Positions 21,887 to 23,490 of a stretch of DNA of 39,668 nt are shown one piece after another (the first letter of the stretch is position 1; each line of letters begins with the position of its first letter). Where the stretch lies: positions 1 to 39,668 of the forward strand of contig JAJZAI010000033.1 of assembly GCA_021799495.1 (NCBI GenBank), read 5' to 3'. The notes under the pieces were generated by a model. That model searched no databases. It was given only the letters and a program-made list of their open reading frames with translations, and was not told the origin of the DNA. Both the position numbers and the translations under genes were made by a program. The stretch comes from Deltaproteobacteria bacterium (GTDB lineage Bacteria; Desulfobacterota; Binatia; Binatales; Binataceae).

Positions 21887-22327
21887 TCACGCTTTGCCGG
21901 ATTCCGAGCCGGCCGGCTGCAGTGCGCGCCCCTCCAGCACCATCTGGGTCTGCGTCACGAGCGCGAGCAGCCGGCCCTCCGGCGACGTAAGCCGCGTCTG
22001 CCAAACCATGGTGCGGCGGCCGCGATGCAGCGGCGTGCATTCGCCGATAATCCTGGTTCCGACGGGGGCCGCCGCGAAAAAATTCGTCTTCGATTCGAGC
22101 GTGGTCGTCGCCGCTCCGCCGGGCAGATTCAGCGCCGCGGCGTAACCGCCGAGCGAATCCGCAAAGGCCATCATCGCGCCGCCATGCATCACCGCCGGGC
22201 GGGTGCACAATTCGTCGCGCACTTCGAGTTCGGCCTCGATCCGATCGGGTGTGGCCGAGCGCAGGCGCAGCCCCAGAAAATCGGCGAAAGGCAACGCGCT
22301 TTCGCGCAGAACGCTCATCGAATCCAT
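21887..22327 (-). CDS. PaaI-family hotdog thioesterase
   Basis: A 146-residue single hotdog-fold domain with the signature VMHGGAMMAFADSLGG (HGG at 48-50), typical of PaaI/YbgC-like acyl-CoA thioesterases that release CoA from aromatic or short acyl-CoA esters. It most likely works as a dimer or tetramer in the cytoplasm. ATG at 22327 is preceded by AAAGGAG, supporting the start. No phenylacetate genes are nearby, so the substrate is open. Confidence 0.87.
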   Translation of the reverse strand: MDSMSVLRESALPFADFLGLRLRSATPDRIEAELEVRDELCTRPAVMHGGAMMAFADSLGGYAAALNLPGGAATTTLESKTNFFAAAPVGTRIIGECTPLHRGRRTMVWQTRLTSPEGRLLALVTQTQMVLEGRALQPAGSESGKA

Positions 22328-22691
22328 GTGCTTCTCCTTTTACAGTTGGGCGCCAGGCGCCATCACGCTGTTTCGCGAATCAGGTACGGCAGGTTTGGGT
22401 TGGCGAACTAGTATGCCACCCAATGACGGTTGTCGATTACGTCCGACGTAATGGCGCTTCACCAAATACAGCGCGGCCAGCCGCATGGGTTTGGGGCCGC
22501 TTTCGATGACTGATTTCGCCGCCGTATCCGAGCTTCACCGAAACCGGACCGTCCGTTGACAGTGAAAAACACTCCAGTGGATGACCGACCGATAGCGTCA
22601 GCTAATCAAAGATGAAAGTGTCGAAACGGCAGGTATCCAAATCTGGAAAAGCGGCAGGATTGGTTCGCCTTGTACGAACGCTTTCAAGGAA
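22328..22691. other. Gene-poor intergenic region
   Basis: No convincing coding frame or recognised structured RNA (tmRNA, SRP, RNase P, 6S) was seen here. The left part must hold the leftward thioesterase promoter, but no clear -35/-10 pair was identified. A rightward frame at 22612-22794 reads through a perfect hairpin and is rejected. Confidence 0.4.
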
Positions 22692-22717
22692 AGAGCCCCC
22701 TTTTGCAAGGGGGCTCT
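22692..22717. terminator. Strong intergenic hairpin
   Basis: Arms 22692-22702 and 22707-22717 form a perfect 11-bp stem closed by a TTGC loop. There is no long T-tract on either side; read leftward it is followed by TTTCC. Possible roles are a 3' end for the leftward small gene at 22822-22932 or for an unrecognised transcript entering from the left. Confidence 0.55.
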
Positions 22718-22777
22718 CCCTTCTGACGAGGCTTGAAGCCCCGGCTCGTCCAGCAGCTAGCCCGGCATGGTTGAAGG

Positions 22778-22804
22778 CCTCCGCGAGCCGTTAAGGCGCG
22801 GAGG
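22778..22804 (-). terminator. Hairpin 3' of the lysine-rich small gene
   Basis: CCTCCGCG (22778-22785) pairs with CGCGGAGG (22797-22804) across an 11-base loop, starting 18 bases after the stop codon at 22822. It lacks a U-run; it may be a 3'-stabilising or termination hairpin. Confidence 0.4.
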
Positions 22805-22821
22805 GCGATAAATATGGTTGG

Positions 22822-22932
22822 TTACTTCTTCTTGGTCGGCTTCTTGGTAGCCTTTTTCTTCGCCATGGTGCTCTTCAGCTTCGGTTTGGATTTGGCGGTC
22901 TTCTTCGTACCGGGCTTTTTGGTTGCTGGCAT
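22822..22932 (-). CDS. 36-residue lysine-rich basic protein (histone H1-tail-like)
   Basis: A short leftward gene with every expression signal in place: ATG at 22932, a perfect AGGAGG (22938-22943) five bases upstream, and a near-consensus promoter at 23034-23006. The product has 36 residues of which 16 are Lys, the rest mainly Thr, Pro, Ala and Ser, starting MPATKKPGTKKTAKSKPKLK and ending in KKPTKKK. The composition resembles bacterial H1-like or AT-hook-free DNA-binding tails and ribosome-associated basic peptides. Nucleic-acid binding is inferred from charge alone. It is too short for most gene callers. Confidence 0.75.
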   Translation of the reverse strand: MPATKKPGTKKTAKSKPKLKSTMAKKKATKKPTKKK

Positions 22933-23005
22933 ACGTTCCTCCTATGCGGTCGCTGCTGCCGGACGGGCTTGATAACAACGATTCGCTCAACCGGACGACG
23001 AGCCG

Positions 23006-23034
23006 ATTATAGAAACACGTTATGCAAGAATCAA
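23006..23034 (-). promoter_or_regulatory. Near-consensus sigma-70 promoter
   Basis: Read leftward, TTGATT (23034-23029) and a perfect TATAAT (23011-23006) are separated by exactly 17 bases. Transcription would begin near 23000, giving a leader of about 65 bases before the lysine-rich gene's ATG at 22932. The surroundings are unusually AT-rich for this genome. Further right, 23067-23100 carries a small inverted repeat (AAAATCC...GGATTTT) and CCATGA-T-TCATGG (23083-23095), a possible operator. Confidence 0.7.
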
Positions 23035-23172
23035 GAGCCGTTCATGAAAATTTATAAACAAATTCTAAAATCCGGATTCAGACCATGATTCATGGATTTT
23101 CCTGAAATTAAAATATCGTTCAGACATTAGGAATCTTGATTTGCGAAAGAACTTGGCTTTACGATCGAAGTG

Positions 23173-23490
23173 ATGGCGAAATTAAGCTATTTGCTCCGGC
23201 GCCAATGGTTGAATCTAATCCTCGGGGGAATCCTCGCGGTGCTGCTGTTCAGCCTGCTTGGCGGCGCGATGGGTCCGCGCGATCTGGCCAACCTGCGCCG
23301 CCATCGCCGCGACCTGGAGGCGCGCCGCGACCGTTTGCAAGCCGAAGAAAACCAGATGAACAGTCAGATCGATCGGCTCAAGAACGACAACGCCTACGTG
23401 GAACGGCTGATTCGCAACGAACTGGGTTACACTCGCCAAAACGAGCTGATTTACCGCTTTCCGAATCATCCTACCGCGAAGAATCCTTGA
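23173..23490 (+). CDS. FtsB/DivIC-family septum formation initiator
   Basis: A 105-residue bitopic protein: a short cytoplasmic N-terminus (MAKLSYLLRRQW), one transmembrane helix (LNLILGGILAVLLFSLLGG), then a periplasmic coiled coil (about 35-75, LRRHRRDLEARRDRLQAEENQ). The family ending is IRNELGYTRQNELIYRF. FtsB with FtsL and FtsQ links early and late divisome proteins and activates septal peptidoglycan synthesis. GTG 23170 immediately precedes ATG 23173 and either could start. It stands alone here, without the enolase or ispD neighbours common in other bacteria. Confidence 0.87.
   Translation: MAKLSYLLRRQWLNLILGGILAVLLFSLLGGAMGPRDLANLRRHRRDLEARRDRLQAEENQMNSQIDRLKNDNAYVERLIRNELGYTRQNELIYRFPNHPTAKNP

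Follow-up and report, generated by a model that had tools for sequence, protein, structure and literature searches.

A lysine-rich small gene divergent from ftsB, with a predicted helix joining the two ends of its mRNA

The window analysed here, a stretch of 39,668 nucleotides, contains on its minus strand a complete and small transcription unit (22686-23034) made of a promoter, an AGGAGG sequence, a 36-codon open reading frame (ORF) and a terminator. Our preferred reading, held with moderate confidence, is that this unit yields a minimal polyanion-binding protein resembling a histone H1 tail, from a closed-loop mRNA whose closing helix would control stability or translation. Gene finders readily overlook lysine-rich microproteins, and homology searches filter them as low complexity. 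The one described here is widespread in its bacterial class beside ftsB and matched no family model, and the signal that can be traced is in its RNA, where compensatory changes mark an end-to-end helix that has support in 11 of the 12 families other than that of the window (hereafter f1).

Expression signals and gene neighbourhood

All signals of the unit are found on the minus strand. The promoter, of sigma-70 type (23006-23034), combines a -35 box TTGATT at 23034-23029, a 17-base spacer and a -10 box TATAAT at 23011-23006, which amounts to 10 of 12 matches. It is the best among three sites in 2.1 kb, for an expectation of 0.9 +/- 1.0 in shuffles. In an alignment of 25 family sequences, the TTG of the -35 box, bases 1, 2 and 6 of the -10 box, the ATG and the final AAG-TA of the ORF are invariant columns, and it is by this conservation across the family that the promoter and ORF signals exceed chance. 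The original prediction had proposed these elements from the one sequence, together with the AGGAGG, and had called the cassette strong; conservation now backs each element, and the strength of the cassette, like the high expression suggested for it, is a prediction from its match to the consensus. Upstream of the -35 box, the alignment reveals an AT-rich element (TTTTAGAATTTGTTTATAAATTTT, 23047-23070, minus strand), present in most of the 25-26 aligned family sequences (L030 deviates and L045 is cut there). It is UP-element-like, a putative role that the neighbouring ftsB gene could also draw upon.

The Shine-Dalgarno sequence (SD) AGGAGG at 22943-22938, kept in the family alignment, is followed five bases further on by the ATG of the ORF (22822-22932, minus strand, stop included). 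Beyond the ORF, the 3' untranslated region (UTR) contains a hairpin, P2 (CCTCCGCG...CGCGGAGG, 22778-22804), identified in the sequence and in the minimum free energy (MFE) fold. A hairpin at this position is visible by eye in most relatives; it aligns poorly and is missing from the consensus structure. A second hairpin, P4 (CGGGGCTTCAAGCCTCG, 22727-22743), is found in the RNAalifold consensus and in relatives, and an intrinsic terminator hairpin with a T-rich tail (about 22686-22720) is recognized in the sequence and in both the consensus and MFE folds. Downstream hairpins had been predicted, to the number of two; there are three. The GC content of the locus is 48-56%, versus 60-69% in its surroundings (500-base windows), a contrast that had also been pointed out.

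The genome of the window carries a single copy of the lysine-rich gene. On its 5' side, and divergent from it, lies an ftsB-like gene (DivIC/FtsB, septum formation initiator, 23170-23490, plus strand), assigned by Pfam PF04977 (3e-16) and synteny. By eye, a candidate ftsB promoter TTGATT...TACGAT is seen near the ftsB start (23129-23158, plus strand), the AT-rich block at 23047-23070 being conserved in its own right. On the other side, a 4HBT thioesterase gene (21887-22327, minus strand) starts past the terminator.

Conservation of the peptide in its family and of its position in the class

The encoded peptide, MPATKKPGTKKTAKSKPKLKSTMAKKKATKKPTKKK, contains 16 lysines out of 36 residues (44%), as originally predicted, and the family consensus is MPxKKKxxxKAxKSKPKLKSxMKKKKAxKKxKKK. 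By combining a covariance model of the 3' UTR (R1), direct reading and the ftsB neighbourhood, we found the gene in 39 of the 41 f1 genomes, with a broken frame in one of them. R1 matches 36 of the 41, one of which, G061 (E 0.0097), we do not count, and the figure of 39 adds G034, recognized by its peptide at a contig end, and G019, G021 and G032, which have short versions beside ftsB. The gene was missing from G011 (53% complete) and G061, and ftsB was found in neither. The short versions (L106, L107 and L104, respectively) have 21-25 codons only, as in MPAAKKATKAAMKKKTTKKKK, with a quite different closing-helix sequence; they escape both the peptide profile and R1.

A peptide search over 57 genomes, comprising that of the window and its relatives, gave strong matches in 7/7 members of the genus and two further ones at E < 0.01, for a total of 18 at E <= 1, the weakest being partly chance. 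With the DNA block as query, 37 of the 57 genomes were matched at E <= 0.01, some at other loci, and direct reading of DNA matches showed an ORF with its SD in 26 of 27 family loci. The peptide profile (24 members) matches 33 of 38 f1 genomes and none of the 107 other genomes in a class set of 145. Over 297 genomes of the phylum, R1 matched 26, among them 6 of f1; the remaining 20 matches are weak (best 6.4e-6), and many of them are short and fall on the terminator section of R1.

The ORF also evolves as a coding sequence. Within genera, 145 of 191 codon changes are synonymous and 46 are not, for an expected synonymous share of 23%, and changes at codon positions 1, 2 and 3 number 75, 61 and 191, all being pairwise counts over non-independent pairs. 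Gaps inside the ORF are multiples of three in the family alignment. That the gene is conserved and translated is, in our judgement, practically certain. In G027 (L048), the RNA is kept (R1 E 1.2e-21) and the reading frame is interrupted after codon 18, apparently through the loss of one base; this could be decay or an assembly error. Loss of the frame in relatives with retention of the hairpins had been put forward as the mark of a non-coding RNA; in the family, frame and RNA structure are both conserved.

No Pfam, NCBIfam or PHROGs match was found for 24 f1 members, and no PDB match for the f1 profile. Four class relatives were scanned as well: none matched Pfam above cut-off, and one 43-aa protein matched NF050153 (Rv3852) at 22 bits for a cut-off of 100, which we take as compositional. 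A search of the open-licence PMC literature returned no description of this gene.

Outside f1, 76 of the 107 class genomes in the sample were examined, and 48 of them contain a Lys/Ala/Pro/Thr-rich ORF of 21-120 codons with an SD. All but one came from looking near ftsB (47/48), G365 coming from a helix-arm pattern match. A first set at ftsB yielded 14 of 16 genomes, and a second one 34 of 60, of which 59 stretches were taken at the DivIC match; the Lys threshold differed among scans (22%, 28%, 30%). The ORF was found throughout f4 (6/6), f6 (10/10), f8 (1/1), f10 (3/3), f11 (5/5), f102 (2/2) and f105 (1/1), and in part of f5 (6/9), f7 (5/6), f9 (5/6), f103 (1/2) and f104 (3/6). None was found near ftsB in f2 (0/13) and f12 (0/5), where the gene may have been lost or relocated, nor in f106 (0/1), absences that are soft because some stretches end with the contig and a few DivIC matches are weak (e.g. 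G382, G373). Elsewhere in the phylum, 106 genomes of the sample have DivIC; in 40 of them, a single stretch near ftsB per genome showed no ORF of this kind, four of the stretches having short chance ORFs of 18-23 codons.

Having been filtered for Lys (22-30% or more), the class relatives reach 58% Lys, and they carry KKAPA/KKAT repeats. The gene is divergent from ftsB in all 41 scored loci (42 were given for orientation and G046 was dropped by the SD filter), at a distance of 0.3-4 kb; the same arrangement was seen, within 1.5 kb, in five f6 and f9 genomes. Repeat-expanded versions are seen at the same position in G045 (L119, 112 codons) and G378 (L299, 120 codons), which suggests that the protein gains and loses length through repeats. 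Sequence search does not join the f1 peptides to the longer class proteins, and an f6 peptide typed in as query matched 3 of 145 class genomes. The proposed link between the two sets draws on composition and RNA architecture as well as on gene order and orientation, and on these grounds the genes are very probably homologous.

A helix between the 5' and 3' untranslated regions

Given the 25 family sequences, RNAalifold paired, unprompted, the 5' UTR with the 3' UTR around the entire ORF. The 5' arm of this helix, P1 (GCCCGTCCGGCAGC, 22955-22968, minus strand), and its 3' arm (GCTGCTGGACGAGC, 22744-22757, minus strand) are also supported by pair counts and by the MFE fold of the window. P1 encloses the SD and the ORF, and is directly followed by P4 and then by the terminator. 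The original prediction had missed this helix; its interpretation is supported in part, as regards a conserved small gene of translated type, absent from the libraries searched, with binding to DNA or RNA as a putative further feature.

Over the 11 pairs of P1, 95.3% of the cells are paired in the 25 sequences. Both sides have changed in 4 of the 11 pairs, for a shuffled mean of 2.0 (22 of 500 shuffles reach 4), and the covariation score is 0.324 versus 0.219 in shuffles (0/500), with slid controls at 0.036-0.147. Further pair types show no excess (12 vs 11.6 in shuffles, 260/500). The window transcript folds at -121.4 kcal/mol (z = -4.1), a relative having z = -3.0, and ensemble folding of 24 family transcripts gives a median of 23 UTR-UTR pairs, beyond what P1 itself contributes. 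We hold the reality of the closing helix in f1 to be hardly in doubt. The modelled probability that the SD is unpaired has a median of 0.58 over 24 family sequences, so that partial SD pairing is possible. The start codon is unpaired at only 0.01 in the window RNA (ViennaRNA model), which would also fit repression, and the models pair it in 5 of the 7 members of the genus; translation control is therefore possible.

No Rfam family reached its gathering score in the window. The best match, RF03015 (22.8 of 42.7 bits), covers only P4 and the terminator, and a scan of six relatives gave two sub-threshold matches, RF00489 and RF00778. With every match below the gathering score, in the window as in these relatives, a known Rfam family was rejected as the identity of this RNA.

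Among the 48 non-f1 transcripts, the 45 that could be scored have a helix in equivalent position with a different sequence. When the 3' arm was required to sit immediately ahead of P4 or the terminator, the mean score of a transcript's own helix was 26.9 versus 19.2 for between-family swaps (45 transcripts, 12 families; 0/20,000 permutations). The own mean is above the swaps in 11 of the 12 families, f103 being below. Only 13 of the 45 own scores top all swaps; where several families have the arm CTCGCCTGAG in common, their arms also pair across families. In a smaller anchored set (12 of 14 transcripts scorable), the mean was 29.0 versus 19.2 when the 5' UTR came from another family (0/50,000), and every transcript beats 291-300 of 300 shuffles; an earlier anchored version had lost 5 of 14 non-f1 transcripts and misplaced one. 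Anchors were mis-set for several f6 transcripts and the terminator call is absent in 3 of the 48. For transcripts whose anchor was wrongly placed or absent (G349, G355, G369, G385, G395, G405 and G408), a helix is seen by eye, outside the statistical test; it is bulged in G349 and G385, and none was seen in G354. In an unanchored test the control median reaches 24, and only 7 of 47 transcripts are below 0.05. The case for the class helix thus rests on position and covariation, since unanchored UTR-UTR helices are common in GC-rich DNA.

The arms themselves vary widely: CTCGCCTGAG/CTCAGGCGAG in f6, f7 and f9, CTCACCTGAG/CTCAGGTGAG in G045, GTGTCTGTG/CACAGACAC and GTGCCTGTG/CACAGGCAC in f11, TTCGCCTGCGAGGGTG/CACCCTCACAGGCGAA with one mismatch in f4, GAGTTCGAGACGG/CCGTCTCGAACTC in f104 and GTTTCGTCG/CGACGAAAC in f10. 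P4 and the terminator are retained in most class relatives. Taken together, we find it highly likely that the closing helix is real across the class. In f5 relatives (L156, L164), the terminator comes directly after the closing helix, and P4 was not found. The pattern CTCGCCTGAG..GGAG was also tried as a probe: it matched 95 of 145 class genomes, by eye mostly by chance, since a reversed control also matched in most genomes.

Upstream of the closing helix, the 5' leader is often a C-poor G-tract in f6, f7, f9, f11, f102 and f104 (e.g. L101, L158, L159), with 4-6 GG runs in 34 nt in eight examples. G outnumbers C by at least 14 within 30 nt in 24 of 30 transcripts of these six families versus 0 of 44 of the others, a grouping made after looking, and own-locus p is below 0.01 in 17 of the 30. 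Such a leader, possibly a two-layer RNA quadruplex, was not seen in f1.

Interpretation and comparison with known systems

From its composition, the peptide is likely to be a polyanion-binding protein. The longer K/A/P/T-repeat proteins at the same position, with the composition of a histone H1 tail, fit a nucleic-acid-associated protein, and the freedom of length across the class makes a charge-based role fit better than a folded one. We propose that this monocistronic gene would produce a minimal lysine-rich protein whose cationic chain, in the manner of H1 tails and Hc2/AlgP-type repeats, grips polyanions non-specifically, be they chromosomal DNA, RNA or ribosomes. The closing helix, which leaves the SD uncovered, would join the mRNA ends and set stability and translation, through protected ends and re-use of ribosomes on so short an ORF; the peptide would probably feed back on its own RNA. 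That the helix is a control element acting in cis is reasonably likely.

A function of the structured RNA itself, as a scaffold or regulator bound by the lysine-rich peptide that it encodes, seems unlikely, although it has several points in its favour: the helix keeps its position while changing its sequence across families, P4 and the terminator persist in most relatives, the fold is markedly stable, and six families have the G-tract leader. Against it, no loop sequence was seen in common across families, Rfam gave nothing at gathering score in the window, the RNA is without a known trans target, and cis control of one mRNA explains the same observations. In a bolder and equally tentative form, that of a self-coding ribonucleoprotein of a new class, the closed-loop RNA would encode an H1-like polycation and also serve as its binding partner or nucleation site; as tentatively, this RNA may be old in one bacterial class, plastic in sequence and conserved in shape. 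If true, the stock of a chromatin- or RNA-condensing peptide would be set or localised on its own RNA, and the G-tract leader of several families would be an extra docking structure.

Still less probable is a small ribosomal or ribosome-associated protein, acting on rRNA rather than on the nucleoid. A conserved dedicated promoter would suit such a protein, and bL34, bL36 and bTHX are of similar size and charge; however, across the class the length varies by repeats between 21 and 120 codons, which is unlike a fixed ribosomal subunit, and PDB gave no match to the f1 profile. We find it quite improbable that the mRNA resembles those of type I toxins, its 5'-3' interaction silencing a harmful cationic peptide until processing. 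The end-to-end helix around a very short ORF, the strong fold and the paired start codon speak for it; yet the peptide is hydrophilic and without a membrane segment, the gene is single-copy with a conserved order relative to ftsB, and no conserved antisense frame was found in family relatives beyond an effect of composition. Finally, it is very improbable that the ORF is incidental to a non-coding RNA, or a low-complexity frame arisen by chance, despite the conserved structure and the RNA kept by G027 with a broken frame, a pure non-coding RNA being rejected because of the synonymous bias, next to which stand the specificity of the profile, the invariant ATG and ORF end, and the gaps in threes.

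The preferred reading, an H1-tail-like protein made from a closed-loop mRNA, would give this lineage, represented in our data by draft genomes, a candidate H1-like protein that binds chromatin or RNA. To our knowledge, mRNA looping around short ORFs is known only from single cases, such as icaR and toxin mRNAs. Comparison across the class is a natural way to test whether bacteria loop mRNAs to stabilise or recycle the translation of very short ORFs.

Compared with known systems, the locus shares with tmRNA a short ORF inside paired ends. The tmRNA identity was rejected: the window has no Rfam (RF00023) or ARAGORN match, and a separate tmRNA is present in the genome at C9:6101-6458 (187 bits).

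With the hok and aapA toxin mRNAs, which use 5'-3' interactions, it shares a short ORF, a stable RNA and paired ends, as described in PMC6733600. According to the same source, their end-to-end interaction masks the SD, as in aapA, and an antisense RNA exists, whereas P1 leaves the SD unmasked and the peptide is cationic rather than of the hydrophobic membrane type. On the plus strand, a promoter-like site at 23044-23071 is weak (9/12). An antisense ORF (22814-22972, plus strand) reads as a hydrophobic, membrane-like peptide, in a frame that is stop-free in 25/25 relatives, which we attribute to the absence of Tyr, His and Gln codons from the sense strand. It was rejected as a candidate gene: by eye its start is not conserved in sequence, and it is most likely a by-product of AAG/AAA codons on the other strand.

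The icaR mRNA of Staphylococcus aureus likewise has its two UTRs paired (PMC3868564). There, as that source describes, the SD region pairs with UCCCCUG, so that initiation is blocked and an RNase III substrate is formed. Unlike in icaR, the 5' arm of P1 (22968-22955) stops 11 bases ahead of the SD, which the 3' UTR thus leaves free of P1, and the helix covaries across the class.

The nearest kind are the H1-like proteins, Hc2/HctB of Chlamydia, BpH1 of Bordetella and the AlgP and PhaF tails of Pseudomonas. Hc2 varies via lysine-rich repeats and binds DNA and RNA, as reported in PMC2848022, and the KPAA repeats of AlgP are described to bind DNA (PMC9239181). Our gene shares with them a low-complexity chain rich in Lys, Ala, Pro and Thr, repetitive in many class relatives. 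In contrast to them, it has 21-36 codons in f1 and 21-120 in the rest of the class, is without a second domain or a match to a curated family model, holds a fixed place divergent from ftsB, and has its mRNA closed by a UTR-UTR helix. We rate the protein as one of a known sort, set in an mRNA architecture that is unusual and covarying.
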